DNA of 64,000 nt. Origin: Tricholomella constricta (Eukaryota > Basidiomycota > Agaricomycetes > Agaricales > Lyophyllaceae). The stretch spans positions 372,001 to 436,000 of the forward strand of contig JAACJP010000019.1 of NCBI GenBank assembly GCA_013368375.1. The letters run 5' to 3'. Shown piece by piece: positions 5,015 through 23,149 of this stretch. The notes beneath the pieces were generated by a model, which was given only the letters and a program-made list of their open reading frames with translations, did not search any database and had not been told where the DNA came from. Position numbers and translations under genes: made by a program. Numbering within the stretch: the stretch's first letter is position 1; the number at the start of each line of letters is the position of its first letter.

Positions 5015-6660
5015 ATGGTCCCAGAAGCCTGGACCAGTGCAGATCAAATAGTTTTCTTGTGCTCGTACCTGGCTATTTTTCTCGAGCATCAGAAAAAAAA
5101 TTCAATCCATGATTTCTGGCCCATAATTGAACGCGAGTGGTTTACCCGATGGCCTCTTCTGACCCCACAGATGGGGGATGCCAGTGTGCCTGTACCAGAT
5201 ACGGCGCCAGATACAAGTGCACCCGATCCGGGTACTCCTGATCAAGATGTGCCCGATTTGAACATATCTTTCACATCAAATGAGCCGATCCAGCCTGAAA
5301 CAAGGGCCAAGAAATCCAAAGGACCCTTGAATCCCACAGCCCAACTGAAAAAGGTACGTTTGATTCACAGATAGCTGACCCTTTGTTGACGGCTTTTAGA
5401 GGCTAAAGGAGTGGTTTTATAATCGCGGCAACAAGAATAAGACAACAAAGGCGCAGCAGCTCGCACTTGAGTTACGTCCACCGAAGGTCTCGCGGCGTTT
5501 GCAAGCCACCGAGGTTTATGCAAAGAAGCACTATCAGGACAAGATCAAGGCCAATGTTCAAGCTGAAATGGCTGTCGTTGGTTTGTCCCGCAAGAATGCG
5601 CTCGGTGTGGTGAAGAGCGAGATCAAAAAGGCATTTGAATCCGAGCCCCAGGTTGTTTGAGATGCAATCTATGCAGAGACAGAGAGACTGCGCCAGGCCA
5701 AGGCGGACGACAATGCCCAGAGGTTAGGGGAAGAGCGAACTCCGCAAGAGTATGCGAGGTAAATTTCAAGTAGATATAATGAGATTATGGGCTGATGAAG
5801 TTATTCAGTGTCATTGAAGCTGTCCCAAACGCAATGTACCAGCTTACACAGTCGCTCGCTCGACAAACAGGCTGGATCTGGAGCATTGTCGGTGGTGGCC
5901 CAGACCCCGAAAATGGCGGGGAGATCCGAACAATGTCGTGAGTAATGTGACATTATTGTTGATGCATGGTCTGACATGTCGCTCCAGCTTTCATCATGGC
6001 GAGAATGAGCTCGGGCATTCATTCCGCAAGGCTTTCCCTGCTTTCAAGGAATCGTTCCTTCAGCCTTACGCAGCTTTTGTAGAATCTGTCTTTCGTAAGT
6101 TTTGGTGTCGACTATGCAGAAAACCTTTTCTAATCCTTCTGGTTATAGCACAAAATGTTCGTGATGCCCGAGCCCTTCGTAACAAGCCAGCACAGGAGCT
6201 TGACATCGATATTGGGGCAGCAGGGTTAATTTCCATGTCTTCGCCATCGCCGGCTAACTCGGGCCTATCGATGATCGAACCCTCCCTTCGCAGTGACACC
6301 CAAGTCCAACTCTCCAACTCCGTGTTGCCGTCAAGTACGATTGGTGGACCCTCTAGGCTACAGCCACCGGCCTTTCCACCACCTCTGACAGTGCCGGCGA
6401 TCGACCCATCACTCACAGCACCCATCGTGTCCCCGCCCGTCGCAACCCCGCCGCTCAACAACTGCACTCTGCCCCCACTTACCGACCCTCTGACTGAGTT
6501 TACGCTCAGCTCATGCCCGCCACTGGACCCTCCTGAACCACAAATCCCAGAACCCCCTCCGCCTAGCCCCTCGAACCCAAATTCCTTCATGCAGACTACC
6601 GGTGCCGATGGATCTCTGTTTGTCTTTCCAGAAGGACTATTCGGGACCCCTGAGCTGCGC
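5015..6660 (+). pseudogene. 5' part of a host gene split by a gypsy element, with an extra nonsense codon
   Basis: Exons 5015-5353, 5400-5758, 5809-5937, 5988-6094 and 6149-6660 join in frame across short GT-AG introns. The N-terminus has FW-x-WF-x-RWPL, then an acidic Pro/Asp linker, a basic helical part (NRGNKNKTTKAQQLALEL, KKHYQDKIKANVQAEMAV), WIWSIVGGGPDPENGGEI, and a long Pro/Ser-rich tail. Two lesions are seen. First, TGA at 5658-5660 interrupts an otherwise continuous frame (QVV then stop then DAIYAETERLRQAKADD). Second, the coding sequence stops at the edge of the LTR, and the TGA stop that ends the frame (6661-6663) is the first three bases of the LTR. The rest of the gene is at 18757-19252. 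The family is unrecognised by function; it resembles hypothetical proteins expanded in agaricomycetes. Confidence 0.7.
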
Positions 6661-7705
6661 TGATAGAGCTAGAAGGCCTGTAGGTGCTGTGCACAACAAC
6701 AAAACAACTAACAACTATGGGGGACGAGAAATGTTAAAAGTTCCCAAACACGCGAGTGTGCAGGGCTTGTAAGGGTTGTTTGACGAAGGTAAGAGACGAT
6801 CCGACTCGTGGCTAGTCGAACCGACAACAACGCGACGGGGGCGATGGGACGCGACGTTCCCGAGTGGAACGGGTCGGCGACGCGACTTTTGGGTGTCGGT
6901 CGTGCGACAACGAGACGAACGAGGTTAATACGGAGAACTCACGGGTTCGGGCGACGAGTACGAGGCGACAGAGACGGCAGTTACGAGATTTACGACAGTG
7001 GCGACGGTTTATACGATGAGGACGGTGCAGAGACGACAGAGACGACGGTTTCGAGCTATTCACTCTGAGTGTGAGGGAAAATACGGGCTGTAATTCACTG
7101 GGGGAAGTAGGTAATACATGGGTATGTTTTTATACTACACGACCGACTCGCCTCGCGCGAGCCGGCGAGGCAGGTGTTTTACTGGTTTATTGGGAGAAGC
7201 ACCGCCAAGCTTGGTACCGCGCGACGCTTTTTAGAGAGTGTGGCGCTCTTCGGCTCGGCAAAGGGGCTTTTGATCGGCTCGAGGCGTCGGGTCGGATGTA
7301 TGATCGGTGGTGGCTTTGCGATCGGTAGTGGCTCTTGGGTGCGGGACTCCGTGGTACGGCCGGATCCCTCCTACGACTGGCTGGGCAACGGCGTTCCCTA
7401 AGATCATTTCAAATCGGGTTTGGTTGTCGCCGGGTTGAGACCTTGGCATACCAACGTGCGCGGTCGTTGACAGGTTATACGGCGTTCCGTGCTCCGTGCG
7501 CCCAGAGAGGAGAACTGGCGTTTCAAGTTACTTTGTCTCTTGGTCGGTGCATCGGTCGTTTGGTCATATTGTCGGTCAGTCGGTCGTATTGTCAGTCGGT
7601 TGGTTTAGCGCTTTGATCGCATTCGGGGCCGTGTTCGTTGTGGCGCAGCGGTTGATGTCCGTATTATGGGCAGGTTCGGTGTACAGTGCGGGACGGTGCC
7701 CATCA
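6661..7705 (-). repeat. 3' LTR (left) of the antisense-cargo gypsy element
   Basis: A 1045-bp long terminal repeat nearly identical to 17735-18752. It has 27 bp (within 6812-6840) that the other copy lacks. Its first bases supply the stop codon of the interrupted host gene. The U3 end in element sense (near 7705) holds two CAGTCGGT half-sites at 7577-7584 and 7593-7600. Open frames inside it (for example 7071-7328 and 7231-7449) are present on both strands and in both LTRs and are not credible genes. Confidence 0.93.
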
Positions 7706-7744
7706 TCTCCTCCTTACTTGAAATACCGACTGTCCTCAGTCGGT
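7706..7744. promoter_or_regulatory. Polypurine tract plus 20-bp palindrome upstream of cargo gene A
   Basis: On the minus strand, TCAAGTAAGGAGGAGA ends exactly at the 3' LTR and is the plus-strand primer tract expected there. Directly beside it, on either strand, is the palindrome ACCGACTGTCCTCAGTCGGT (7725-7744; 8-bp arms, 4-bp centre), 122 bp before the ATG of gene A. The same 30-bp tract plus palindrome recurs at 9326-9364 in front of gene B. The role as primer tract is standard for LTR elements; the role of the palindrome as operator is inference from its repeated placement. Confidence 0.6.
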
Positions 7745-7866
7745 CCCGTGCATCGGTCAGGGGGCGTACGTCTTGGAAAAGAAGGGCAGGGATAGGAGGA
7801 GGTGGCGGTGCCGACGTGCTGGCGACATATATATATCCAGGTTCTTTGTTTGGTTTACCCATCTTT

Positions 7867-9110
7867 ATGTCGCGACCTCCTGTCGATCTTCAACGTACTC
7901 TCCGCTTCTTGGAACGAGACTGGGACAAATGGCAATCGCTGTCAGCCGACTCGCCTCGTTACGCGCGCACCCGCGTGCTGCAGTACTTGTCAAACAGCGT
8001 CGGAGTGCTTAGGTCGCCGGCAGCTAGCCCCTGGCGTTGGATGTGGCGCGACGAGGAAGAGGCATTGTCCAACATATGGTCTACGATCGGGCCCGACCCC
8101 GAATGGTCCGAGCGGTTCGCGGATCTTCAACCGAGTGTGCGTTCGCTCTTTGCTTTATCGGGTCGTTTCTGCAGGGTACTAACGCGCTAGTTGGTAGTCT
8201 GATTACCCCCAACGAGAGACGGTCGCTCGGGAGCGTATGCGCGCCACCTCTGCTGGAGAGGAGGCAGAGTCTGTCGTCGAGATCTCCGGGGAGTCGGTCC
8301 TGGCGGCACAGGGGAGGCGACATGGTTTATGGCTGGAGCGTCTTGAGGAATTTAAGAAGGAGTACCCTGAGCATTACACTCGTAGCGAAGCGGTAAGTCG
8401 TCGGTCCTCGCGTAGCCTTGTTTTTCTGCTCATTTGTTGGCTAGTGCGATCGTTGCGTGAGTTACGCTTTGGACTGCGTTCAGCGTATCGATATCGATGC
8501 TTGCGCGGTCTGCGAGATTCAATCCAGGCTATGCGAGACGAACAAGGTGGGGTCGTTTCGGCCGGCTCCACACCAGTTTGTGTCGTGCTCAGTCGAGGAA
8601 CACTCTTGCGATGCGTGCACGCCACCGTTGGGTGACGGCGTTCGTTCGCCCGATCTGGCGAGGGTCGCTCGGCGCCTTGTCGTGACTCGCTCCGCAGGTT
8701 CGGCGGACCGGGACGCGGGTTTCCTTTATCAGGGTCCGTTGCTTCGCCTCGACGATCTCCTCCATAACGAAGATTTGCGTGGCCTAGGCTCCACCCAGCC
8801 GTTGTCGGTTATTTCGCGGTTCGGTCTTGCGGATGTAGATCGGGCGCTATCGGCGCGCACCGTTTTCTTGCGCACTTTGGTCCAGGAAGCTCAAGTTCTC
8901 GAATCGCGCCAAGAGATTATGCGTTTGTCGGCTCGTCAGCTTTACCAGCAGGTCGCGTCTACGTCGACGGCCCTTGACTTGCTCCAGGCCCGGCGCGCAG
9001 AGTTAGTGGGAGCGTCTGTGGTGGCTAACGCGGGCGGCGGTGGCAGTGGCAGTGTAATCGGTTTCAGTGGTGGGGTAAGCGACGATGGTGGTGAGGGTTC
9101 GTCGTCTTAA
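7867..9110 (+). CDS. Cargo gene A: zinc-cluster (Zn2Cys6-spaced) protein, antisense to gag-pol
   Basis: Proposed exons 7867-8134, 8217-8392 and 8445-9110 give 369 residues with no internal stop; the first intron acceptor (after CGAG) is the weakest call. The N-terminal module (RTLRFLERDWDKWQSL, then EEEALSNIWSTI, EWSERFADLQP) is helical and is shared with gene B. Exon 3 opens with C-x2-C-x6-C-x8-C-x2-C-x6-C (8445-8534), the spacing of fungal Gal4-type binuclear zinc clusters, but the loop between Cys 2 and Cys 3 (VSYALD) lacks the usual basic residues, so DNA binding is not assured. A conserved helical C-terminal block follows (LLHNEDLRGLGS, SRFGLADVDRALSARTVFLR), ending in a Gly/Ser tail. 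The gene sits between integrase and 3' LTR, on the strand opposite to gag-pol. Function unknown: transcription factor-like or structural zinc protein. Confidence 0.75.
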
Positions 9111-9325
9111 CTCTGGAGTTGGCGTGTTGTGCGTCGGATTATGCTCGTTATCGGTCGCATATTCCTTATATACCTGCTTTGTCGTACGGGCCCTCAAATT
9201 GGGCCGTTCTTTATAATCCGAACTTTCCGTTCTGAGTGGCGCATGTCCGTTCGCTGTGTTGGTCGGGTTCGTCATTGGCGATGTCGGTTTGTTGGCGTCG
9301 GCCGCCGCTCAATCCATCGGTCATG

Positions 9326-9364
9326 TCTCCTCCTTACTTGAAATACCGACTGTCCCCAGTCGGT
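9326..9364. promoter_or_regulatory. Second copy of polypurine tract plus palindrome, upstream of cargo gene B
   Basis: Positions 9326-9355 match 7706-7735 at all but one base, followed by the palindrome ACCGACTGTCCCCAGTCGGT (9345-9364). It lies 142 bp before the ATG of gene B. Because it is internal it cannot be the normal 3' LTR primer tract; it looks like part of a duplicated promoter-gene unit. Sequences after the genes (near 9180-9225 and 11400-11450) also look alike, supporting duplication of a whole unit. Confidence 0.55.
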
Positions 9365-9506
9365 CCGGGGTCCGGTCGAGCGAATTCTAGAACTCGGCGC
9401 GTGTGTGGCGTGAGATGGCGGTGGCGGTGCAACTAAATTTGACAGCGCGTCCTGTTCTGTTTTAAGTGACGGCTCCCTGCTCGGCTCCTGTGTCCTTTCA
9501 ACCACC

Positions 9507-11294
9507 ATGGCTACCACCGTCACCGACTTCAAGCGCGTCTTGCGATACTTGACGACCGACTACGTCCGGTGGTGCCAACTTTCCGACGACGCCACTCGTG
9601 AAGAGCGTTCTGAGGCCCTCGAGGACATCCGGGACGGCCTGGCTGCGCTTCGCAAACAAGAGGCGGGCCCTGGACGGTTGGAATGGCGGGAGGAGCAGGA
9701 GGCGTTAGCCCTGATATGGTCGCGCATAAAGGATGACGGGGAGTGGGCGACAAAATTCGCGGACCTAGAGCCCGAGGTACATTCGTTTTGGCCTGTTGGC
9801 GTGCTGGTACTGACTTGGTTTGGTCTCCCTACAGGACGAGTACACCCGCCGGAGGCGCGAACGACGCCTTCTAGTGGGGACATCTCGAGGCGCTGGAACT
9901 GCGCCACCGGCCGGTCCCGGGGGGTTTGGAGGGGGACCGCCAGTCGAGACGGTTCGTGCGGCGGCATTGGGGGCGGAGCAGGCGCGCAGTAGTGGGGAAG
10001 CAACCGTCCCGCCGGTCATGGGGCAGGTGTCGTCGAGCGTCCCTGCGACGCCGTCGTTAAAAGGGAAAGGCAAGTCTCGGCGTCCCTTTGTCTATGTGCC
10101 TCGCATGTCCGTCGGCGGAGGGTCTCGTACCACGGGTGGCGCTGAGGCTTCTCGTCCGACTCCGCGACCTCGTCGCGAGCGTGAGTCCGCTCTCCGTTCG
10201 GGGCTTGCTTTTTTTTTGTCCGGTTAGTGGCCGGCCACTAACTAACTTGGTAGGTACGACGCCTGTTGTCAATGAACCGGCCGAGGCGACGACTTCGGGT
10301 CGCAAGCGCAAATGCGATGTCGCTGACGACGGGGAAGGGTCGGTGGTTGAGGTCTTGGAGGAGGAATCGGGAAAGGGCAAGAGGAAGCGGCGTGCGGCTG
10401 GTGACAAGTGGCTCGGGCACCTCGAGGAGTTCAAGAGGAAATGCCCCGAGCACGTGGTGCGCGATGTGGTGGTAAGTCGTCGGTTCTGGTTTTGGCGATC
10501 GTCGGGCGTTTTTTAACTCTTACCAGTGCGACCGTTGCGTGGACTCCGGAGTCGATTGCCTCCAGAAGCCTGGCGTCAGTCCCTGCGCGCTGTGCAAGAT
10601 ACATGCCAAGAAGTGTGAGACGACGCGCGATGGCGTCCCGATCGCCGTTCCTAGAGCTTCGGGTTCGCGGCCGCGACGCCGAAATATCTCGCGTTCTGTT
10701 GTCGAGGACGCCGAGGAGAAGCCCGACGTGACGCCCGCGTTCCCGGTGCGTCGTTCTCCCCAACCGTTCTTGGCGGATCCGCAGGAGCGCGAGCGCGAAC
10801 TAGCGGTGACCGCTCACCGCCTCGCGATGTTCCAGGTCGCCGGTTCCGCGGGAATGGGCGCGGGCTTCTTATCGCAGGGGGCGCTACCTCAGGCGGAGGC
10901 TCTGCTTCGCAATGAGGACCTGGACAGCCTGGGTTACATGGCGTCGACGGCGATGATAGACAGTTTCGGCCTTGCCGATGTCGACCGCGCTCTGTTTTCG
11001 CGCAACGCTTTCCTCCGTGCCCTGGTGCAGGAAGCGCAGATCCTGCAGTCCCAGCAGGAAATAACGCGATGGTCATTGCGACAAGTTTATCTGCAAGTCG
11101 AAGGTACGGTGGACGCGTTGAGGAGGTTGAGAGAGCGGCGCTCGGAGCTGGTGGAAGGGATGGCGGGCGCGTCTGGCTCCAGTGAGGGGAGCGCTGTGAG
11201 CACCGACGACGAGGATGCCGAGGGCGAAGGCGAGGGCAACGAAGTAGAGGAAGGCGACGACGGTGTGGAGGAAGGCGATGTCGTGATGGGTTGA
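9507..11294 (+). CDS. Cargo gene B: larger paralogue of gene A, zinc-cluster protein, antisense to gag-pol
   Basis: Exons 9507-9776, 9835-10180, 10254-10471 and 10527-11294 join cleanly (phases 0, 1, 0) to 533 residues. The N-terminus (FKRVLRYLTTDYVRWCQL, EEQEALALIWSRI, EWATKFADLEPE) aligns with gene A. Exons 2-3 add a long Gly/Pro/Arg-rich linker absent from gene A, with basic stretches GRKRKC and GKGKRKRR that could be nuclear localisation signals, then HLEEFKRKCPEHVV, matching LEEFKKEYPEHYT of gene A. Exon 4 starts with C-x2-C-x6-C-x8-C-x2-C-x6-C (10527-10616), followed by the shared helical block (LLRNEDLDSLGYM, SFGLADVDRALFSRNAFLRAL) and a very acidic tail. The cluster again lacks basic residues in its first loop. 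No lesion is visible, in contrast to the gag-pol of the same element. Function unknown. Confidence 0.8.
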
Positions 11295-11683
11295 ACGAGC
11301 GTCGTGGGGTGTCGGTCGGTCGGAGCGCGCTTGGTGTCTTGGTCGCGCGTCCGGCCTTTCTTTTGTTTTATTTTTCTTTCGATATCTCTGCGTGTTTCGT
11401 TTGGAGGCGGTCCTAAAATTGGACTGCCGCGCAATATAGTATTACCGGCCTGGTTTTTGGTCTCGGACCGAATTAAGTGAAATGTAAGTCGGAGTAAGCG
11501 ATTGGGTGGAGTTTTGTTAAGTCTGAACATAATGAATCGGGAGCCCGATCGGTGGTCGGCAGGAGGTCGGAACTGAGAAAATCAGGGGCATAGGTCGTCG
11601 GTATATTCGTTCGGTCGAGCGGTGTGTGTCGGTGAGAAAGGTACTAATGAAAGGAAGGGGTATACGGTTTCGCGGGATGGCGA
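11295..11683. other. Gap between cargo gene B and integrase
   Basis: This stretch holds the 3' flanks of two convergent genes. A T-rich run (TTTCTTTTGTTTTATTTTTC, 11357-11376) and an ATTGGAC-containing segment similar to the one after gene A are visible; no further gene was seen. The minus-strand frame at 11087-11530 is a shadow of gene B. Confidence 0.5.
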
Positions 11684-12766
11684 TTAATTTTGCTCCTCTT
11701 CCGCCTCAGAGTCGTCGTCTACGACTCCGGGTCGGTCTTCGTCATCGGTGATCGTCGTCGCCTCTAGTTCTCTGAGTCGTCTGGTGTCTATATCCAGAGC
11801 GCTATCGGGTAGGAGGATATTGGTTCGTGCGAAGTAAGGGGTGAGTCGGAATGCTGCTACAGGCCGGTGTAAGACGGTGCCATCCAGTTCGCAGAGGATG
11901 TAGGCGCCTCCACGGTTGCGTGAGATCACGACAAGTGGTCCTAGGTATCTAGACCTCATTTTGCGGTTGAGCGACTTCTCGATTTTCGTGTTGCGCATGA
12001 GGATGAGGTCTCCGCGTTTAAAGTTATAGTCGCATAAGGTTCTGGCGTGTTTAAGTTCAAAGTGAACTGCCGCCTGTCGTCGTGCCGCGTATATGTCTGA
12101 ATGCAGTCGCTCTAGATCGGCCGCTCGTTTCTGTAGGGCGATCGCGCGACGTGTCAAAAGGTCGGTGGAGGACAGGATAGAGTCGGGCGGCGGTTGTAGG
12201 TATGTGGCTTCAATGATATCAAGTGGGAGAAGGGGTTGGGTTCCTGTCGCGGCGTAATAGGGAGAGCATCCCATTCGCTTGCGGACCGTGACGCGTTCCG
12301 CCCAGAAGACTATATAAGCGGATTGCGACCATTTGCTTTCGTTTCTGTCAGCGGCTTTGAAAAGGGATTGTCGGACGTCAAAATGGGATCGCTCGACGAG
12401 TCCGTTGGCTCTAGAGTTATAGCCCGAGATTCAAATATTGTGTATGTGGTATTTCTTTGTGAGGTGTTCGGCGGCTTTGATGAAAGCTGGACCGTTGTCG
12501 GTTACGATTTCGCGCAGTCCGCCCCACCGGCAGACGATGTCTTCATACATCCAATTGCCGAGGGTGCGACTGTTTTCCTTTTGGAGCGCGCGCCATTCAG
12601 GAAAGTGAATCAAGGAGCAATGACCTTGGACAATGTATTTGAAACCATTCGACGGCGGTAGGTGCATAGTGTCGATGTACATTTTTGCAAACAGTGGCGC
12701 AGGTGTCGCAACGACCAGGGGAATCAGGACCTTGGTCGTTTGCTGGATCTGGCATATGTGACACCA
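11684..12766 (-). pseudogene. Integrase of the antisense-cargo gypsy element (core present, zinc finger lost)
   Basis: In one frame the integrase reads from a remaining CHIC pair (the second half of the HHCC zinc-binding domain) through the catalytic core: Asp in MYIDTMHLP, Asp in VTDNGPAFI and Glu in GLVERSHF, followed by a C-terminal domain (RGDLILMRNTKIEKSLNRKMRSRYLGPLVV in two parts) and an acidic tail ending at 11684. A TGA at 12431-12433 replaces the Arg codon (CGA) usual in HIRISGYNSRANG, a C-to-T change at a CpG. The N-terminal HH half of the zinc finger and some tens of residues before it are missing, and the frame differs from that of RNase H. The enzyme is therefore inactive in this copy. 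Confidence 0.8.
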
Positions 12767-12782
12767 TCTCCTCCTTACTTGA
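12767..12782 (-). repeat. Internal copy of the polypurine tract at the RNase H / integrase junction
   Basis: The 16 bp TCTCCTCCTTACTTGA are identical to those at 7706-7721 (against the 3' LTR) and 9326-9341. Here they sit at the point where the RNase H frame ends and the integrase frame begins with a deletion. Either a deletion junction or a central polypurine tract is possible. Confidence 0.6.
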
Positions 12783-15089
12783 GATCTGTGCCATGGCGAA
12801 GATCTGTCGGACATGCAAGGGCGACGGCGGTTGCGGCAGTGGTTGGATAATGTGCATGAGGCCTTGCATCCGATCGACCCAATCCTCGAAGTCGGCTTCT
12901 TCTGCGTCATAGTTGTCGGTCGGGTCGTCGGGTTGACGAGGGCGACGAGATGATCCGTCGGGTCCATGGAACGTTCCTTTAACGTGGACGAGCTCGAAGT
13001 GGAACATGAGGACGGACACGATCCACCTGTTTATGGAAGCTGATGGTTGAATATCGGGGTTGGAGAGCATGCCTTTAATGTAGCGCGCGTCGACTTCGAC
13101 GACTAGGTTGCGGACGCCTATAACGTACAGTCGCAAAGCGCCAAGCGCCCGAAATAGGCCGTAAAATTCGAGTTTTGGTTGAGAGAATCGTGATTCGCGG
13201 TCGTTCAGTGTAATGGAACCGAACCGATTGTATCTGCGTCGTTTCCGATCGACGGGGTCGGCTTGACAGAGGTAGAATCCGACTGCGATGTGGGAAGTGT
13301 CGACGGCCAGGATGACGGGGTCGTCCGAGGCGTAGTCGATAGGTACGAGGGGTTTCGCTTCTGCGATCGCCTCAACGATGTCACGTTGCGCTGCGATCTG
13401 GTCGGGGCCGAACTCGAAGACGGCATCCTTGCGGGTTAGTTTGACGAGGTGGTGTGCGCAATGAGCAAAGTTTTTGACGAATATCCTGAGTACTCCGACC
13501 GTTCCTAATAACGCGCGTAACTCCGATAGGGTGGCGCACGACTTCCAATTACGCAGCAAAGCAAGTCGGTCTGCGTCGGGTATGCGACCATTGGGCGTGC
13601 AGACGTGCCCAAGGACTTTAAATTGCGGGGCGCATAAAACTAGCTTCTTGCCAGAGAAGGTGCCGCTGCAGTACTTCATGCGCTGAAGGATTCGGTTGAC
13701 GTCGTTGAAGAATTCCCAGATCGCGAATCGCACGTCGGCATTGGCGGGGTGTGTTTTTGGTAATCCTGTGTCCGGGTCGGGGTACCAAGTTGCTGGTCCC
13801 TTTATAGCAGCGTCATCGATATAAGGCAGTGTATAGTCCGGGATCTCCGGTTGCAGGATGTGAGTGACGTCGTCGTGGAAGATTGGGACGGAGTTGGTCC
13901 AGCCCATAGGTAAGGTGACTAGGCGTAACGCGCCGAAAGGTGTTTGGAAAGTGGTAAGGTCGCGCGACGATGGTGCGATTAGCCGTTCGTCGTAGCCGAC
14001 AAACAGGTCTAACATTGCGCCACAAATGCGACCGGCGAATTGTTCAGCGACATGGTCTGGTATCGGAGTGACACCCGAGTGTCGGATGGTTACTCGGTTG
14101 AGCGGTTCGAGGCTGTGGACGAGGCGGAATTTGCCATTTTTCTTTAGAGTGCAAAACCAACGCGATCGGTAGCTGGAGTTGGACGGTTCGTAAACGCCGG
14201 CGGCGAGTTTAGTTTTGATAATGTCGCAAACTTCATCGTAGATGCCAGGCGGTATGGGGATATTTCGTTCGATCCAGGGTGTATGTGCAACGACCGGGAT
14301 ATCGATGGGGGGAAAGAAATCCGACCGAAAACTACCGCGCTCGGAATCGTCCCATGCGAACGCGAGGTTCTGTTTACACATGAGGTCGTGCATAATGGCG
14401 CGTTCGGCGGGTGTTAGGAAGTCCGGGTGTTCGCGGTCTAGGTCTTCCTTTCGTTCTAGGGTGTAGCGGCCTGTGGGTTGAAAAGGTGGCGGGTTGGGAA
14501 CCAAGGTCGGCATGTTGGCGAGAGGATCGCCTAATATTTTGTGTTCGATTCGGAAGTGGTCGGGACAGCTTGCTACGATCGATCGCACTTTTTGCGCTAC
14601 TGGTTTGTACTTCTTTTTGGTTTGTACGCCTTTAATTTTCACAACGAAGGCGTCGGTGGCGGCGTTGGTCAGGGATTGGGTGTGGCGTCCACTATGGCGC
14701 TCGTGGTTCGGTAAAATAGTGCAGAGGGTCGTTTGTTCAAGAGGGGTAGAGCTGGTATTAACGGATTGGTCGGCGATTGCTGGTGTGGTTAGTTCGGATG
14801 CCGCGACGTAGAGTGAGGCTAGTTGCGCGTCGTAGGTGGCGTCGCTATTAAATTCGGTCGGTAGTTCGCAGAAAGAAAGGACAGTCGGGGTATAGCTTAG
14901 TGGGTCGTACTCGAGGAGGAGTGCAAGATCGCCGTGATCTCGACTTATTTCCTCGAGAGTATACGAAAATTTACGTCGGTCTTGGGGCGGCGACGTTGTC
15001 CGCGCGCGAAGGTTGGTATCGCGATGACCTCTCGAGTGTTCGGGTCGGTGATGGTTATGATCGTATCGTCGGCGGATCTCGTTTTCACG
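12767..15089 (-). pseudogene. Reverse transcriptase - RNase H of the antisense-cargo gypsy element
   Basis: Long open frame from 14642 downwards with reverse transcriptase blocks: YRSRWFCTLKKNGKFRLVHS, then LPMGWTNSVPIFHDDV and the catalytic YIDD in PYIDDAAIKG; then RNase H with the first acidic residue in VILAVDTSHIAVGFYL, and RESRFSQPKLEFYGL. Upstream the linker from protease (EEISRDHGDLALLLEYDP) is in another frame, so a frameshift lies near 14950-14980. At its downstream end (12767-12782) the reading runs into a 16-bp copy of the element's polypurine tract and then loses the integrase frame. The RT core itself shows no stop. It would make cDNA from the element RNA in cytoplasmic particles; as part of a broken polyprotein it is unlikely to be made as a full enzyme here. 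Confidence 0.85.
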
Positions 15090-17249
15090 TTAGAGCAAGT
15101 AAGTACGTCGAACGGGCGGCCGAGGAGTATATCGTATGCAGGATTGCGAATGGACGTGCATTTGGAGGTAGAGCGTGACCTCTCCTATCGTACAAGGTAC
15201 GTTTCGTGCTAGACCGAGCGACGGGTCGGTTGTTCCGTTCGCTGATTGCATCTGCAGCACTATAGTTGGGTCGTATTTGACCCCTAGTCCATGGCAAACT
15301 TCTTCCGACATGGCTATGATCTGGCACCCGCTGTCGACGATGCTTTCTATCTGTTCTCTCGCGTCGACCATTATCATGATCGATCTGAGTGCATGCGATT
15401 CCATTGCGACGATCAGTCGGTCCGGATGCTCGCCAGGTAGTAGTGTCTGGTAATACGTGTTGTAGATGTCGCCGGTGACTAGCGCTCCGGGCGGTGGCGT
15501 CGCGTTGTCGCTGTTGGATTCGCAAGGCAGTGCGTCGAGTTCCTCAATGAACGCCGACGTGGGGACTTCTTGGTATACCGTTGTGAGGTTGCCGGCGACG
15601 ATACGCTTTGGTGTATTAGCTTCCCTAAACTTTCCGCGAACCTCTGGCGCTACCCCGCAGAGTTCCCGAACTGTGACCGGTATGGTGGCATCGAGTGCGC
15701 GTTCGAATAGAGTCGTTGATTTGGTTGGATCTGTAATGGGCGCCTGCGTGCGGTACGCACTGTCGGCTTTCGCCTTCTCCGTGGCGGCTAAGTTTCGCGT
15801 GGTAGGGGGGATGTATCGGTTCTCAGGAATGTTAGAGAAAGGGTGTACTGGAGTCTGGTCGCGGGCATTGCCTGTGGCGTCAGTCTTGGTACTGGGGATC
15901 AGAGGTATGTTGGACGGTGGCGGGGGAGCCTTGGCTTGGCCTTTCGTCGCGTCCGAGACGGGCTGCGACGCGGGCGCTGACTTGTTGACTGGTGCGATCC
16001 TTGGTTGGTCGGCGCCTTGAACGGTTTCGACTGTGACGGGTCGCCTTTGCGGTGCGCGGCTAATAAGTTCTACGCCGTCGAACACCTCTTTCCTTGCGCG
16101 CAGGGTGTTGAGTTCTCGTTCTAACACGATCATGTGATCCTCGATTTTCAGGTCATGGTCGGTGACGTCGTTAAACTGGAGGATTTCCAACATCATGCTT
16201 TCGGTCGGGTTCGCGTTCGCTGATAGCTGTCCTGTCGCCATTTGGCCGGGGTTGCACCTGTGCCACTCGTCTAACTTGCCTTTTATGTATCGACCTGGAG
16301 TTCCCGCCGGTATGCGCGCGCCGCTTGGTAGGCCTATCTTGTTGTCGTCGGTTCGTCGGCAGCGTCCTTCGGTCGCGTATGTTTGATGTATGGGACAGTT
16401 AGGAATATAATGTCCTTCACCACCGCAGAAGTGGCAGTTGTCATTAGGTGACTGATTCGGTCGGCCGCCGTCGCTTCCTTTGTCTTGTCCTAGGCGTTGG
16501 ATATGTTGTTCCAACAAGTTGATTCTTTCGTAGAGCTCTTCCAATTTGAGGGGCTGTCCTGTGTTATGCGACTTGGTCGCGCCCGTTAACGACCCGCTTG
16601 GCGTGATCGTAATTTGTGGGGGCGCGCCCGGTGGCGCTTCCTGTCGTTGGCCGGCGTTTGTTCCGTGGAGGATATGTTCAGCCGCAGCGCGAACGGTTTC
16701 CGTGGCGTAGGGGTTGTCGGGATGGTGGTTCGGGTTTAGGATCTCGAGTCTGCGATGGATCTTTGACCATAGATCGGACTGGAACGCGCGACGGAATTGG
16801 CGGTCGCGTTCGTTTATCGAAAGTCGGTTTTTGCTGACAAGGAACTGGGTAACAGAAAGGAACTGTCGGTAATATTCCCCGAGGTCACTATTCGACTGGA
16901 TCCCGAGTCGGTGTCATTCTCTGATCAGGTAGTCGAGGTCGGCCATTGAATACTTTCTTTCTTCGCTTGCGCCTGGGTAAAGCGCCATTATCGCTTTTCG
17001 CCAATCGTCGTATGTGGTACCGACTGCGAACTCGTCAAGTTGCTCCCACAGATCCGCGGTATCGATGTCGGTGTATCGCGTAGTGTGCATTTTCTTCTCT
17101 TGTTCATCTACGACGTTACACTCGATGAAGAGATGATTTAAGTCCGAGAAATATCGGCGCAGTTCACGTGCGCGTTCGGGCACGAACGTCAGCGCCGAGC
17201 TTTGTCCGCGTGCGGGCATCGGCTTTATAATGATTGGTGGTTGTGCCAT
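15090..17249 (-). pseudogene. Gag - protease of the antisense-cargo gypsy element
   Basis: Starts at ATG 17249 (MAQPPII); an upstream extension into the leader to the LTR is open but Pro/Ser-rich. The capsid-like part (ARELRRYFSDLNHLFIECNV, DDWRKAIMALYPGASEERKY) runs to DLDYLIRE, where TGA (16914-16916) stands in place of a Trp codon; the same frame continues without further stops (HRLGIQSNSDLGEYYRQFL). A zinc knuckle C-x2-C-x4-H-x4-C (CHFCGGEGHYIPNC) follows, then a Pro-rich linker, and the protease with DSGC in SIVDSGCQIIAMSEE. Near 15141-15150 a one-base shift separates LYLQMHVHS from the conserved AYDILLGRPFDVLT, which is in another frame. So Gag would be truncated and protease fused out of frame. 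Confidence 0.85.
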
Positions 17250-17715
17250 GATAGATGGTATTGGTTTCGGGATAGGGGACGGGGAGGGGGAATACGACGG
17301 TGAAGAAGAATCTGAGATTTCTGGGGTCGCGGGCGATAGATAGGGGAGTCTAAATTCAACTCCTTGATCGGTGGTAGGAGGTTCCGACGCAAAGGGGTCG
17401 AAAGCTAGGTCGGGTTGCGCGGTTGGTTCGGGGAGCGGTGTTTGATCGGTCGGGGTAGGCGACGGTAGTGTCGACGAAGGGCTATAGAAGAGCGGGCTGA
17501 GGTTGTTATGGATCGCGCGGTGTGGGGTTACTGAGCGGAAGAACGGGGAGAGCGATTCGGAGTCGGTGTCGGCTTGTCCGAGAGCAGCGCGAATTTCGGC
17601 ACGGAGGGTTCGGGCTTTAGCTTCTTGTCGGGTTGCGGGCGGAATGGTCGACGAGTCGTAGATTTTTATGAACAAGAGGAATGAGGTTGCGTGTTCGGCG
17701 GTGGCTTTTAAAACC

Positions 17716-17731
17716 CTCGCGGTGGGCTCCA
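17716..17731 (-). other. tRNA primer-binding site of the antisense-cargo gypsy element
   Basis: On the minus strand TGGAGCCCACCGCGAG begins three bases inside the 5' LTR. It starts with TGG, the complement of the tRNA CCA end, as expected for priming by a full-length tRNA 3' end. The tRNA cannot be named from the window. Confidence 0.7.
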
Positions 17732-17734
17732 GAA

Positions 17735-18752
17735 TGATAGAGCTAGAAGGCCTGTAGGTGCTGTGCACAACAACAAAACAACTAACAACTATGGGGGGCG
17801 AGAAATGTTAAAAGTTCCCAAACACGCGAGTGTGCAGGGCTTGTAAGGGTTGTTTGACGAAGGTAAGAGACGATCCGACTCGTGGGGGCGATGGAACGCG
17901 ACGTTCCCGAGTGGAACGGGTCGGCGACGCGACTTTTGGGTGTCGGTCGTGCGACAACGAGACGAACGAGGTTAATACGGAGAACTCACGGGTTCGGGCG
18001 ACGAGTACGAGGCGACAGAGACGGCAGTTACGAGATTTACGACAGTGGCGACGGTTTATACGATGAGGACGGTGCAGAGACGACAGAGACGACGGTTTCG
18101 AGCTATTCACTCTGAGTGTGAGGGAAAATACGGGCTGTAATTCACTGGGGGAAGTAGGTAATACATGGGTATGTTTTTATACTACACGACCGACTCGCCT
18201 CGCGCGAGCCGGCGAGGCAGGTGTTTTACTGGTTTATTGGGAGAAGCACCGCCAAGCTTGGTACCGCGCGACGCTTTTTAGAGAGTGTGGCGCTCTTCGG
18301 CTCGGCAAAGGGGCTTTTGATCGGCTCGAGGCGTCGGGTCGGATGTATGATCGGTGGTGGCTTTGCGATCGGTAGTGGCTCTTGGGTGCGGGACTCCGTG
18401 GTACGGCCGGATCCCTCCTACGACTGGCTGGGCAACGGCGTTCCCTAAGATCATTTCAAATCGGGTTTGGTTGTCGCCGGGTTGAGACCTTGGCATACCA
18501 ACGTGCGCGGTCGTTGACAGGTTATACGGCGTTCCGTGCTCCGTGCGCCCAGAGAGGAGAACTGGCGTTTCAAGTTACTTTGTCTCTTGGTCGGTGCGTC
18601 GGTCGTTTGGTTGTATTGTCGGTCAGTCGGTCGTATTGTCAGTCGGTTGGTTTAGCGCTTTGATCGCATTCGGGGCCGTGTTCGTTGTGGCGCAGCGGTT
18701 GATGTCCGTATTATGGGCAGGTTTGGTGTACAGTGCGGGACGGTGCCCATCA
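17735..18752 (-). repeat. 5' LTR (right) of the antisense-cargo gypsy element
   Basis: A 1018-bp copy of 6661-7705; shorter by a 27-bp block. Only about six base substitutions were seen over the aligned length, so insertion looks recent. Two CAGTCGGT motifs at 18624-18631 and 18640-18647 lie 105-130 bp from the U3 end, where upstream activating sites of an LTR promoter would be expected. Confidence 0.93.
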
Positions 18753-18756
18753 GTGC

Positions 18757-19252
18757 TCCTCGCCCCCTCCAGACATTGTGGAGCCCAGGACGCGCTCCCC
18801 ATCCCCTTCAGACACTGTGGAGCCGAGGAGGCGCTCCCCATCCCCTTCAGACACTATGGAGCCGAGGACACGCTCTCAATCCCCGGACCCAGGTTGGCCC
18901 AAAATTCTGGCATCTCTCAAAAAAAGGCCCGCTCTGCCCCCACCGAAGGTGTCGAAGTCAGAAGCACCCAAAAAACGAGCAGTCCGTGCCACTAAAAGCA
19001 CTCCACTGCAGCCCGACGAAGAGGAACCGGCTGCAGGCCGTGGGCGCTGTACACGCAAAGCGGCTACTACGAAGGAGGTTTTACCGTTGACTGTCGATAA
19101 ACATGGCAATCGGACGAAGGATGCGAATGGAAATCCCGTCAGGGGGAAGCGTAAGGCCAACAGTAAAACCTCATGGTAAGTCGTACATGCAAATATCAGA
19201 GGTACTTCAAAACTCATCGCTCTCCAGTGGTACGAAGAAACAAAAGACTTAG
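18757..19252 (+). pseudogene. 3' part of the host gene split by the gypsy element
   Basis: Exons 18757-19175 and 19228-19252 (intron GTAAGT...CTCCAG) continue the frame that breaks off at 6660. When one copy of the 4-bp TSD is removed, the codon series GAG CTG CGC runs into TCC TCG CCC. The product here consists of degenerate 13-residue repeats of the type VEPRTRSPSPSD, then Lys/Arg-rich stretches (KKRPALPPPKVSKSEAPKKR, GKRKANSK) ending in GTKKQKT and TAG. The repeats start right at the junction (PELR before it fits as the end of a preceding repeat), which strongly supports one original gene. Without the 5' part it has no own start and is a relic. Confidence 0.7.
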
Positions 19253-20128
19253 ACACGAGAGGGCTTCGTAAATTGTATCTACGTAATAATGGCTCCTCAC
19301 TCGTAATAATAATCTTGCGTGACCTTTCTGGTACTTCTATGTGGTGCGGCTTTGAGAGCCCCGTAAGTTTCCCTCCCTTTCACTGCTATATAGATAGCGC
19401 ATTGTGGAAGTGCTGGCCCTCGCGAAGTTGCGACGAATATTTTGATGACAAATAACTGTTTATCTATTCCTTGAAGATTCCGAAACCAAAGGTTTTTCAT
19501 CGCACATCCTGTACCGCGTTGATGGGCATGCATGCACAATCAATTGTCTGAATTTTTATGAGGAAAAAAAAACATATCATCATTGTTTCATTATATGCGA
19601 GATTTGCGGCTGAAGCAATCAAGGACGCTATTGTCCAACCAGTATTTTTCTTTTGGGGCAAAAAAACATATCACTATTATTTTATTCTAGGTGAATTTGC
19701 AGCCGCAACATTCAAGTAGATCTATTTTGAGCTGAATGGATCGTAAAAAACATGTTATTTATAGATATGTGGTGGATGGAGAAGATCCAGGAACGGCGCT
19801 CGGTTGACGAGGCTTCGATTGCGAACAAATAAACAATCCGCCCCGACAGGTCCCAACCCGCCCACGACGAGCAAAGGGTGCGCGCGCGCCCGACCAACCG
19901 GCAAGGTAGACCTGCGTGGGACATTCTCACGTGTCAATCTGTAGCGACAGCTCTGTATTAACAATGCGTCACTTGTGCTTACAGGTCCTTCATTAATGAA
20001 AATGACTGTACAGCCTGACATGAAAGCACTCAATGTAAGCTTCCACATCCCTCTCTCTTGCAACCCCCATACCCCCACCCCTCAAGTTAATCTACCACAC
20101 CGCACCTTACCACTCCGCCCCACTGACC
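19253..20128. other. Intergenic, no gene seen
   Basis: AT-rich, with two similar short segments containing AAAAAACATATCA (near 19567 and 19664) each followed by a GCxGCAA-type segment, so a small local duplication. Frames such as 19755-20078 on the minus strand lack protein-like composition. The end of the stretch is the promoter of the first tandem gene copy; a TATA-like box was not clear there. Confidence 0.5.
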
Positions 20129-20641
20129 ATGAACACACCCCACTTTCACAACCGTGAGTTCCCCATTCCAAGTATGTATATGTATTAACCACTCACCCAC
20201 GCCTTCTGTCATCTGCGCCCCCCTCCCCTCCTCCTTCGGCCTCCACAATTCACAGGAGGCGTAGAAGAAGCCGCGCGCGAGCTCTACGCCGTCGCCAACG
20301 CCTACTGCGCCAATACCGACGCCTCCATGTACCGTGCCCTGCAGGGCTACGACCGCCTCATGGATATGGAGGGCGCCGTGGACCCGCAGTTCATTGCACA
20401 GGTCAGGCGCAGTCGAATTTCGTGCTACCTTAGTTTGAGTGCGTCCTCCTCTTCCTTCTTCCTTCCTTCCGTGCTGATGTGCGCGGAAACCTTCTTTTTC
20501 ATAGAATTAATAGACGAAATAGAGAGAGACCTGGATTATGTGTTTGCTAACCCTGTCGTTCCCATCATCACCACGACGACGTCGACGATGTCGCCTCCCG
20601 CACAGAAGTGGCGCTCACGCCTCCGCTTTTGGCGTCCTTGA
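20129..20641 (+). CDS. Tandem small-protein family, copy 1
   Basis: Three exons, 20129-20153, 20256-20438 and 20505-20641; intron boundaries are GTGAGT...CACAG and GTGCGT...CATAG, identical in placement in all complete copies. The product is about 114 residues: a short N-terminus MNTPHFHN, a helical core (EEAARELYAVANAYC, YRALQGYDRLMDME, DPQFIAQVRRSRISCYLSL, LIDEIERDLDYVFANPVVP) and a Ser/Thr plus basic tail ending FWRP. The spacing of Ala/Tyr/Leu in paired helices is reminiscent of TPR-like helical hairpins, but no named family was recognised. Four related copies follow on the same strand. No signal peptide or membrane segment is visible. The tail is shorter than in copies 2 and 3 because of a frame difference near the end. 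Confidence 0.7.
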
Positions 20642-21062
20642 TTTCGACTCGGAGCACCTGAGTCGGTGGGGATCATTGTATAATTTCTTTATCTTTCTCC
20701 TAATGTACAGAACTCCTAATGTGTCTTACCTTATAATTGTTATACCTTATACAATGCATGATTTGCAGTGCATGCGACCCACTCGCTTTGCGCACCCCCT
20801 GATACTATGACATTCGCTATATGAAAGTCTCTGCGTACTGTAAACTTCCACATCCTCTCATATAGATCTCCACCCCCACCCGCCAAGTTAATCTACAGCA
20901 CAATCTTATCACTCCCGAGTCCACGTATGATTTATACATAAAGTATAACGTCTTGACCATGACCCCGTAATAATAGGGACCACCAAGCTTCGCGATCGCA
21001 CGACGCTCCATGCATCGCCGACCCACTCATACCTATCGCACCTCCACCCCCCAATATCACCC

Positions 21063-21070
21063 TATAAAAG
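21063..21070 (+). promoter_or_regulatory. TATA box of tandem family copy 2
   Basis: TATAAAAG lies 100 bp before the ATG at 21170, in a sequence that is otherwise non-coding. A comparable ATAAAAG lies at 23034-23040 before copy 5. Confidence 0.5.
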
Positions 21071-21169
21071 CGGCGCCCCGAGCCACAGAATCACAACGTT
21101 CTTCTCTCATCACATCCGAATCCCCCACAACCTTACCACACTGCACCTTACCACCCCACCCCACTGACA

Positions 21170-21699
21170 ATGAACACACCCCACTTCTACACCAACCGTG
21201 AGTTCCCCATTCCATGTATGTATTTCACTACTCACCCACGCCTTCTGTCTTCTCCCCCCTTCGGCCTCCACAATTCACAGGAGACGTAGAAGAAGCCGCG
21301 CGCGAGCTCTACGCCCTCGCCAACGAGCACTGCGTCAGAAATGACGCCTACCTGCACGTCGCCCTGCAGAGCTACGACCGCATCATCGAAATGGAGCCTG
21401 AGGGCGCCGCGGACCCGCAGTTCATTGCACAGGTCAGGCGCAGTCGGATTTCGTGCTACCTTCGTTTGAGTGCGTCCTCCTCTCCCTTCTTCCTTCCTTC
21501 CGTACTGATGTGCGCGGAAATCTTCTTTTTCATAGACTTGGAAGACAAAGCAGAGAGGGAGTTGGATTATATGCTTGCTAACCCCGTGCCCATCATCTCC
21601 ACATTGACCTTGACGTCGACAACGTCACCTCCCACACAGAAGTGGCCCTCACGCCTTCGGCGTTGGGCGTCCTTCAGTTCGACTCGGCATAGTACCTGA
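21170..21699 (+). CDS. Tandem small-protein family, copy 2
   Basis: Exons 21170-21197, 21281-21469 and 21536-21699; phases agree throughout. The product of about 126 residues has MNTPHFYTN, then EEAARELYALANEHC, VALQSYDRIIEMEPEGAADP, QFIAQVRRSRISCYLRL, LEDKAERELDYMLANPVP and a tail rich in Thr/Ser then Arg/Trp (RLRRWASFSSTRHST). The second exon has two residues more than copies 1 and 3 (EPEG). The nucleotide sequence around both introns and the first exon is nearly the same as in copies 1 and 3, indicating recent duplication. Function unknown; it may be a TPR-like helical adaptor, which is inference only. Confidence 0.75.
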
Positions 21700-21955
21700 G
21701 TCGATGGGGATCATTGTATAATTTCTTTATCTTCCTCCTAATGTACAGAACTCTTAATGTGTCTTACCTTATGATTCTAATATATTTAATTTAAGTATGG
21801 TGTGCAGTGCGACTCACCCCCTAATGACATCCTATTTGTTATATGAAAGCCCTCGCGGATAGTAAGCTTTCACATCCCTCTCTCTTACAACCTCCATACC
21901 CCCATCGGCCAAGTTAATCTACCACACCGCACCTTACCACCCCGCCCCACTGACC

Positions 21956-22501
21956 ATGAACACACCCCACTTTCCCAATCGTGAGTTCCCCATTCCAAGT
22001 ATGTATTGTTCACCACTCACCCACGCCGTCTGTCTTCTTCCCCCCCTCTTTTGGCCTCCACAATTCACAGGAGCTGTAGAAGGAGTCGCGCGTAAGCTCT
22101 ACGCCCTCTCTAACGACCACTGCACGAGAACCGACGCCTCCCTGTACCGCGCCCTGCAGTACTACGACCGCCTCATGGAAATGGAAAGCGCCGCGGACCC
22201 GCAGTTCATTGCACAGGTCAGGCGCAGTCGGATTTCGTGCTACCTTCGTTTGAGTGCGTCCTCCTCCTTCTTCCTCCTTCTTCCTTCGGGAGTCCTTCCT
22301 GCCGTGCTGATATGCGCGGAAACATTCTTTTTCATAGACTTGATAGACGAAATAGACAGAGAGATGGATTATATGTTTACCAACCCCGTCGTTCCCCTCA
22401 TCACTGCAACTTCGACGTCGACGACGTCACCTCCCGCACAGAAGTGGCGCTCAAACCTCCGGCGTTTCGCGTCCTTGATTTCGGCTCGGAGCAGGGCCTG
22501 A
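21956..22501 (+). CDS. Tandem small-protein family, copy 3
   Basis: Exons 21956-21980, 22071-22253 and 22338-22501. The product of about 123 residues has MNTPHFPN, VEGVARKLYALSNDHC, YRALQYYDRLMEMESAADP, QFIAQVRRSRISCYLRL, LIDEIDREMDYMFTNPVVP, and the tail QKWRSNLRRFASLISARSRA. The second intron carries about 18 bp extra relative to copies 1 and 2. All splice sites, phases and the 3' flank (GAGTCGGTGGGGACCATTG) are conserved with the other copies. The conservation of frame over three exons in copies 1-3 indicates that these are genuine genes under constraint and not random frames. Confidence 0.75.
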   Translation: MNTPHFPNREFPIPSMYCSPLTHAVCLLPPLFWPPQFTGAVEGVARKLYALSNDHCTRTDASLYRALQYYDRLMEMESAADPQFIAQVRRSRISCYLRLSASSSFFLLLPSGVLPAVLICAETFFFIDLIDEIDREMDYMFTNPVVPLITATSTSTTSPPAQKWRSNLRRFASLISARSRA

Positions 22502-22717
22502 GTCGGTGGGGACCATTGTATAATTTCCTTATCTTTCTCATAATGTACAAAACTCCTAATGTGCTCACCATATATTTGTGATATCCTATTTAATGCATGT
22601 TTCGCAGTGCATGCGACCTACTCACTTTGCGCATACACCCCTCAATATCATCATATTTCGCTATATGAAAGTCTCTGCTCACTGTAAACTTCAACCCTCG
22701 CCGAATCCTACTGCGGC

Positions 22718-22873
22718 ATGAGAGAGCTGGATTATTTGCTTGCTAACCCCGTCTTGCCTACTATCGCGACGACTCAGACGCCGCAGCGGCGTTTCGCACA
22801 GAAATGGCGCTCCCGCCTCCTCCGACGCTGGGCGTCCTTCGATTTCAATTCGACTCGGCGTAGTACATCCTGA
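22718..22873 (+). pseudogene. Tandem small-protein family, copy 4 (only the last exon remains)
   Basis: A 52-codon frame matches only exon 3 of its neighbours: RELDYLLANPVLP, a Thr/Gln stretch, then QKWRSRLLRRWASFDF and TRRST. Upstream, promoter-like sequence shared with other copies (ATATGAAAGTCTCTGCTCACTG) joins the exon directly, so exons 1 and 2 and both introns were deleted. An ATG at 22718 could start a short peptide, but this is best read as a deletion relic. The 3' flank is conserved. Confidence 0.65.
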
Positions 22874-23149
22874 GTCGGTGGGGACCATTGTATAACTCAT
22901 TTCTCATTTTTTTTCATCTTCCTGTGGCTGAAAATGTACGGAAACTCCTAATGTGTCTTACCTTTCAATTGTATCTGGTTTATAGAGCATGCGACCCACT
23001 CATCCACCCCCTAATGTCATCCTATTTCCCACATAAAAGCCTTCGTGAAATGTATAAGCTTCCATATCCCTCTCCCTTACAACCCCCACGCCCATCCTCC
23101 CCCCACCGACTGGGAATAGCACAGGAATTCTCCTTATCATCCCCACGCA

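Follow-up and report, generated by a model that had tools for sequence, protein, structure and literature searches.

Two antisense genes with zinc-cluster-type cysteine motifs in a Ty3/gypsy-type retrotransposon family of Tricholomella constricta: a possible self-regulation module

The window analyzed here, a stretch of 64,000 nucleotides (nt) from the basidiomycete Tricholomella constricta (contig JAACJP010000019.1, positions 372,001 to 436,000 of the forward strand), contains at positions 6661-18752 a Ty3/gypsy-type long terminal repeat (LTR) retrotransposon that lies on the minus strand and carries two additional genes on the plus strand. This gene pair occupies the interval from the stop of pol (11684, minus strand) to the 3' LTR, in antisense orientation to gag-pol. 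Gene 1 (7867-9110; predicted protein of 376 amino acids) has exons at 7867-8136, 8198-8392 and 8445-9110, separated by introns at 8137-8197 and 8393-8444, while gene 2 (9507-11294; 533 amino acids) has exons at 9507-9776, 9835-10180, 10254-10471 and 10527-11294 and introns at 9777-9834, 10181-10253 and 10472-10526, the second of which was read in the window copy alone. Both are stop-free in the window through the predicted joins, and both encode the cysteine cluster C-x2-C-x6-C-x8-C-x2-C-x6-C, which in gene 2 stands at the start of the last exon (10527-10616, plus strand) and recurs with identical spacing in gene 1 (8445-8534, plus strand). In gene 2, which is hypervariable among elements, the Zn2Cys6-like cluster is accompanied by a basic tail, a C-terminus predicted to be helical and an acidic tail; gene 1 is without the basic tail, and its cluster is apparently degenerate. 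The integrase part of pol is spread over several frames in the window copy, many relatives having an open frame of 1295 amino acids, and the antisense genes are in fact the better preserved part of the window copy, pol being split.

The gene models were compared across 27 fetched copies that contain the pair region (labeled L0xx) and the window. In all of the 49 cluster exons found (26 of the 27 fetched copies and the window, with none in L019), an AG stands directly 5' of the first cysteine codon, some of these acceptors being of the weaker AAG or GAG type, and the middle gap of the cluster is 8, a structure that is not due to chance given that both features hold in 49 of 49 exons; the search pattern preset most of the spacing and left the middle gap alone free (6-10). 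At exon 1 of gene 1, GT follows directly 3' of residue 90 in 22 of 22 copies with a cluster exon, and ATG is found at the aligned first residue in 20 of them, the L031 and L032 loci beginning within the exon. The donor of gene 2 exon 1 is GT in 23 of 25 copies with a usable match, the exceptions being L034 and L035 (no usable match was found in L019, L022 and L033), and ATG is present at the aligned first residue in 19 of the 25 and within eight codons in 24, with L018 as the exception. Based on this conservation of splice signals, both genes are apparently spliced.

Identity between the two predicted proteins is 45% in the zinc/C-terminal exon and 41% in exon 1. When a tree was built from 42 distinct last exons, the 20 gene 1 rows and the 22 gene 2 rows were split by one branch with 100/100 support and, because the two genes fall on either side of it, they stem from one old duplication that predates the spread of these copies. 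Among pairs with a synonymous divergence (dS) of 0.05-1, the median ratio of non-synonymous to synonymous divergence (dN/dS) was 0.29 for gene 1 (217 of 231 pairs) and 0.17 for gene 2 (66 of 276), which indicates purifying selection on both genes; for reverse transcriptase (RT) it was 0.04 (86 of 120 pairs, some of them involving the disrupted RT of L011, L012 and L021). The tree and the dN/dS estimates exclude cluster exons of fewer than 190 codons, namely those of gene 2 in L012, L025 and L031. A first-pass annotation of this DNA had described two lesion-free, paralogous antisense genes with this cysteine spacing between integrase and the 3' LTR and had proposed dN/dS between copies as a check, and its account holds in coordinates, anatomy, splice signals and paralogy.

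To place the pair in the genome (44 Mb, 118 contigs), searches were run whose counts are lower bounds, as the best 150 of 179 candidates were scored in the gene search and the best 129 of 662 in the RT search. Part of the last exon of gene 2 gave 200 matches, many of them paired about 2 kb apart on the same strand. Of about 150 gene matches listed, 144 were parsed (six second fragments were left out), as were 95 RT matches, leaving out second fragments, matches at 28-29% identity and a few short pieces; the unparsed RT matches include four with at least 90% identity. At least 118 of the 144 parsed gene matches lie antisense to an RT match, on its 3' side and within 12 kb, and at least 61 of the 75 parsed RT loci at 90% identity or above are accompanied on the 3' side by an antisense homologue no more than 7 kb away. 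Of the remaining 26 gene matches, 18 form nine pairs, five of which lie too near a contig start for the contig to include the RT, and the other four, away from contig starts, have no RT match on the expected side within 12 kb, judged by positions only, and may include an isolated pair. The first-pass annotation had named, as an alternative, captured host DNA unique to this locus, which would be a private pair of host transcription-factor genes. The introns and the Zn2Cys6-like cluster would be in keeping with such an origin, but the family-wide presence of the genes antisense to RT contradicts capture at the window locus, so that the gene pair is a trait of the element family, and we regard the chance of a private host capture as practically negligible. 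Among sister elements (14 RT loci at 41-45% identity), a parsed gene match within 12 kb was seen only once, at 10.4 kb, and that match is shared with an RT of the family that lies closer. Neither the cluster nor the palindrome described below was found on either strand of the two sister elements read, L036 and L037, the former being a weak negative because of other reading frames inserted within it. Two large plus-strand frames are present at 1807-5149 of L036, within about 6 kb of the sister RT, and one of them resembles, by eye, another type of reverse transcriptase.

Both window genes have the spacing of the largely fungal Zn_clus family (PF00172), C-x2-C-x6-C-x5-12-C-x2-C-x6-8-C. To go beyond the cysteines, 18 distinct gene 2 clusters were aligned by hhalign to seven host Zn_clus domains (the 7 of 15 fetched host sequences with the full pattern), which gave a probability of 93, equaled by none of 100 shuffles with cysteines fixed; for the gene 1 cluster the probability was 12, and 8 of 100 shuffles scored as high. 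Such shuffles also move gap columns, which may favor the real alignment, and 30 of the 45 Zn_clus matches in the genome are above the Pfam cut-off on their own. On these comparisons the gene 2 cluster resembles host Zn2Cys6 domains beyond its cysteines, and the gene 1 cluster, which has no match to the host profile, does not. Gene 2 of L034 and L035 matched Zn_clus in register at 14.4 and 15.7 bits, under the 21-bit cut-off, and these two copies have first loops with basic residues (CDRCRKQGVSC and CNRCRKQKVAC); gene 2 of L022, L028 and L032 had no Zn_clus match. By eye, the last exons of gene 2 that were inspected show a basic stretch after the cluster (RSRRR- or RPRRR-like in nearly all) and acidic tails, whereas the six gene 1 exons inspected are without the basic stretch and have extra cysteines, including a C-x2-C, after the cluster (8535-8620 in the window), which were not seen in gene 2. 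In four copies gene 1 has no cluster at all (L034 and L039, with gene 2 at 32% identity to the window, and L038 and L040, with gene 2 at 36-38%), its second exon passing directly from the basic stretch into the C-terminal part. The gene 1 cluster looks degenerate.

AlphaFold, given only two sequences, points to a helical N-terminal domain in exon 1 (predicted local distance difference test score, pLDDT, of 77), for which a fold search found no match below E = 1, and to two long C-terminal helices in the last exon of gene 2 (residues 149-175 and 181-215), where 10-residue pLDDT means are mostly 64-88. The gene 2 protein, searched whole and as residues 258-500, had no homologue in a protein database that is believed to be mostly prokaryotic and metagenomic and therefore says little; scans of IMG/VR with the gene 2 exon and with RT gave no match, and no zinc cluster was matched when the L034 cluster was compared with PDB sequences.

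The regions upstream of the two genes share a 39-nt element. Element A (7706-7744) consists of the polypurine tract (PPT) of the retrotransposon, TCTCCTCCTTACTT on the plus strand, and a palindrome, and lies upstream of gene 1; element B (9326-9364), a second polypurine tract with palindrome, lies upstream of gene 2. The palindrome is perfect (ACCGACTG-TCCT-CAGTCGGT) and continues the polypurine tract that abuts the 3' LTR. Elements A and B are 97.6% identical over 41 bp, whereas the coding parts of the two genes are only 41-45% identical in protein. Mean column conservation is 0.989 for element A (17 gene 1 sites; flanks 0.86-0.89) and 0.953 for element B (25 gene 2 sites; flanks 0.75-0.87), and the windows at the element starts rank sixth of 206 and sixth of 221 overlapping windows, respectively. 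Sites were located through the first 19 nt with up to four mismatches, a procedure that inflates the conservation of the polypurine half only, the palindrome being unused for finding them; among the 21 long loci (the window and 20 fetched), L014, L015, L019, L020 and L022 yielded no gene 1 site, and L019, L022 and L033 no gene 2 site. A genome-wide count on the forward strand gave 119 occurrences of the pattern CYGACTG-N4-CAGTCGG and one of the reversed control, and the pattern lies within 3 kb of a parsed gene match at 52 of the 54 places listed. Its ends are CCG and CGG (CCG-N12-CGG), as is typical of Zn2Cys6 targets. Within the LTR, the half-site CAGTCGG is found twice in the window copy, a count reached in 5 of 500 shuffles, and near the LTR edge (7540-7620) a TCGGTC array counts 5-9 units per LTR in 10 copies (shuffled means 0.66-1.05, maxima 4-6); this array is a possible regulator target or just a simple repeat, and, having been picked post hoc, it is only a lead.

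A further copy of the polypurine motif, without the palindrome, is found inside the integrase coding region as a 19-nt near-copy (12767-12785), whose first 15 nt are identical in 17 of 18 copies; 2.1% of 15-nt windows vary as little, and 6.1% of 19-nt windows when the whole motif is considered. It may represent a central polypurine tract, such as those that occur in lentiviruses and Ty1. Rfam gave no match at gathering scores. The polypurine-palindrome element as a whole could, in fact, serve reverse transcription, by providing extra plus-strand priming sites or an RNA hairpin beside the PPT, and be unrelated to the antisense genes. Element A is indeed the tract abutting the 3' LTR, the copy in integrase is conserved without any palindrome, and by eye some of the stem variants (C to T, A to G) would give G-U pairs in plus-strand RNA, though the L014 variant breaks the pair either way. 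Element B, however, is 1.6 kb away from the LTR, upstream of gene 2 in the space that separates the two genes, and the palindrome accompanies the polypurine motif at both gene-upstream sites but not at the integrase copy. We consider this explanation, the main rival where the palindrome is concerned, unlikely; a regulatory and a plus-strand-priming role of the palindrome could both hold.

Among 56 elements that have RT at 90% identity or above and a normally spaced gene 2 match, the identity of gene 2 to that of the window ranges between 30 and 100% and falls into five bands: 80% or above (14 elements), 57-66% (5), 40-47% (19), 34-38% (8) and 30-32% (10). These bands are relative to the window, and the tree divides some of them further. 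Gene 2 and RT identities to the window correlate with a rho of 0.63 over all 56 elements, because the two most diverged gene 2 bands have RT at 90-97%; in the 37 elements with RT at 96% or above the correlation is not significant (rho 0.21, p 0.21), with gene 2 identity spanning 38-100%. Similarly, in 12 fully read copies (66 pairs, without L011, L012 and L021) the gene 1, gene 2 and RT identities show no correlation with one another (rho 0.09, -0.02 and -0.01), RT ranging there only from 0.96 to 1.0, which limits the power of the comparison. Silent divergence from the window is about 0.15-0.36 for RT (disrupted copies aside), 0.3-0.47 for gene 1 (0.08 in L015) and 0.6 to more than 1.5 for gene 2. 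Between the window and L028 the DNA cannot be aligned from bin 9500 to bin 11600, except for the zinc-cluster bin (75%), whereas the sides are 77-96% identical; the edges of this break are close to the start codon of gene 2 (9507) and to the pol stop (11684). From the last 350 bp of the 3' LTR through most of the gene 2 last exon, L021 and L025 match at 99-100% identity, and in pol at 80-99%, and this pattern is a direct trace of recombination. Silent divergence, the L028 break and the L021/L025 recombinant indicate that old gene 2 versions persist while other parts of the elements are far more alike. Gene 2 behaves as a reassorting module, as if it were the control or identity gene of the element, which suggests selection between element lineages. 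A separate observation concerns the locus G000:C5:544359-545273, where the RT is 100% identical to that of the window and the nearest antisense gene matches, 9-12 kb away, are only 41-47% identical to the window gene 2.

It could be argued that gene 2 versions were simply gained by template switching with diverged elements and drifted neutrally, with no selection for difference. Reverse transcription of two packaged RNAs switches templates readily, and the recombinant pair L021/L025 is visible in these data. On the other hand, the silent divergence of gene 2 set against that of RT in the same copies implies that old versions were retained while the rest was homogenized, although codon bias in RT could exaggerate this gap, and the break between the window and L028 hugs the gene 2 reading frame; neutral acquisition is, in our judgment, somewhat unlikely. 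A second possibility is that the genes act on the host, for instance as nuclear anti-silencing factors, and that an arms race with host silencing lies behind the gene 2 versions. The nuclear-type basic stretches of gene 2 and the deep divergence between its versions would agree with this. Gene 2 copies of the band at 80% or above, however, have a dN/dS against the window of about 0.09-0.16, a sign of purifying selection and not of rapid protein change, and the nearness of the palindrome to the genes suggests a target within the element, all of which makes a host-directed role quite unlikely.

The explanation we put forward, and to which we give an even chance on sequence evidence, is that the two antisense genes form a module by which the retrotransposon would regulate itself, with gene 2 encoding the regulator and gene 1 a degenerate antagonist. 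The gene 2 protein would enter the nucleus, dimerize through its C-terminal helices and bind the palindrome, and from there it would control the antisense promoters (autoregulation) and perhaps also the transcription of gag-pol from the adjacent LTR. The gene 1 protein, having the common helical parts without a working DNA-binding cluster, would act as a dimerizing antagonist, and the gene 2 versions would be maintained as distinct by selection, either for difference between element lineages or against countermeasures of the host. The reassorting gene 2, the degenerate-looking gene 1, the shared 39-nt element and the third polypurine copy are all beyond what the first-pass annotation had seen.

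Several observations weigh against this self-regulation module. Neither window gene matched Pfam Zn_clus at E up to 1 (cut-off 21 bits), in gene 2 of L035 an implausible unrelated family, HrpB7, outscores Zn_clus, and the basic residues of the first loop of Gal4-type proteins are missing in the window and in most gene 2 copies read. The AlphaFold model of the last exon is poor overall (pLDDT 52.5), with no confident model of the zinc region. Gene 1 retains its cluster in 21 fetched copies and the window, including L031 and L032, whose gene 2 is in the 34-38% band, so that loss is not the rule. Other copies do not conserve the exact palindrome half-sites of the LTR; the palindrome itself adjoins a polypurine tract and may therefore have its role in reverse transcription, and it is near-constant across gene 2 versions whose clusters differ, which leaves version-specific recognition of the palindrome unsupported. 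The first-pass annotation had cautioned that the family might be a zinc protein of another kind and had asked for profile and structure checks of the cysteine region: the caution is borne out by the Pfam result and by gene 1, and gene 2 does match host Zn2Cys6 profiles.

A stronger version of the self-regulation idea would see in gene 2 a multi-allelic identity or immunity locus, elements with the same replication proteins each bearing one of several incompatible regulator versions exchanged as cassettes, so that a resident element would repress only newcomers of its own version. If true, this would be a eukaryotic retroelement parallel to the immunity groups of phages or the incompatibility groups of plasmids; we find it quite improbable. 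Version-specific operators, to be expected by analogy with phage immunity regions, were considered and rejected, as the palindrome does not change with the gene 2 version.

Antisense additional genes are already known in other LTR retrotransposons. Plant Retand elements of the Tat lineage carry antisense TRP28 open reading frames with predicted DNA binding, for which a regulatory role was proposed (PMC11963269). Those elements resemble the family studied here in being of gypsy type and in having an antisense gene for a predicted DNA-binding protein, and differ from it in that here there are two intron-bearing paralogues, a zinc cluster, a palindrome for each gene, reassorting versions and a fungal host; the TRP28 domain (PF04195) had no match (E up to 1) when the window proteins were scanned with Pfam. 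Maize Grande gene23 and other such reading frames (aORFs-3R) are likewise antisense and have their own upstream promoter, and the gene23 protein is reported to be nuclear, in the passages available of PMC7264820. The antisense position of the extra gene is thus shared, whereas neither a zinc cluster nor a paired paralogue is described for gene23 in those passages, the comparison being by description only. Closer in host is the Botrytis gypsy element Boty/BcGypsy1 with its antisense gene brtn, as cited in PMC8365987, PMC4227169 and PMC7264820. Like the present family, it is a fungal gypsy element with an additional antisense gene, but brtn is apparently single in those accounts, and it is set apart here by description, not by sequence. 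The description of brtn is reportedly that of Zhao et al. in 2011.

Human T-cell leukemia virus 1 (HTLV-1) encodes in antisense, and expresses from its 3' end, the nuclear regulator HBZ, a basic leucine zipper (bZIP) protein. HBZ differs from the genes described here in being bZIP rather than zinc cluster and a single gene, and no homology is claimed. An HTLV antisense promoter is mentioned in PMC7264820. With Gal4-type Zn2Cys6 regulators (PF00172) the genes share the cysteine spacing, the profile match of gene 2 and the basic, helical and acidic regions; they differ in that gene 2 is below the Pfam cut-off, the basic first loop is absent in most copies, and the genes are borne by a retrotransposon. 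Among the titles and abstract openings listed in searches of open-licence full texts, we found no fungal or basidiomycete retrotransposon described as having a zinc-type gene that is antisense or additional. While Retand, Grande and brtn show that antisense extra genes as such are known, the paired zinc-cluster arrangement was not found in print, within the portions of that literature covered. The first-pass annotation had known of no described fungal gypsy element with a duplicated Zn2Cys6-like antisense pair; a fungal antisense retrotransposon gene had been described already in brtn, apparently a single gene. In the plant literature, the function of additional antisense genes in LTR retrotransposons is still an open question (PMC7264820). 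The present family offers two antisense genes, a DNA-binding-type domain and a candidate palindromic target upstream of both, together with natural sets of copies in which gene 1 has no such domain or in which near-identical elements carry different gene 2 versions, features that make the self-regulation idea directly testable.

As for the remaining anatomy of the element, all on the minus strand, the 3' LTR (6661-7705) adjoins the polypurine tract at 7706, and the 5' LTR lies at 17735-18752; the two are 99.4% identical, with 6 differences over 1018 aligned sites and one 27-column gap. Pol (11684-15089) consists of RT/RNase H (open reading frame 12597-15089) and integrase, the latter over two further frames in the window copy, and is preceded by the gag and protease region (15090-17807), with a zinc knuckle and an aspartyl protease that both score under the Pfam cut-offs. 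By position, the domains follow the gypsy order protease-RT-RNase H-integrase, RNase H being above its Pfam cut-off and integrase and protease below, and the RT polymerase domain itself had no Pfam match in the window element. The LTRs, the PPT and this order are all present, in agreement with membership in Ty3/gypsy. Despite the near-identical LTRs, no matching target-site duplication was found at the insertion, the flanks reading GCTGCGC (6654-6660) and GTGCTCC (18753-18759). A short tandem repeat with a 39-bp offset directly adjoins the 5' LTR (18755-18884), and farther on (20035-22895) there are several direct repeats, about 0.6-0.8 kb long and 82-85% identical, which probably represent a local repeat or a gene family.

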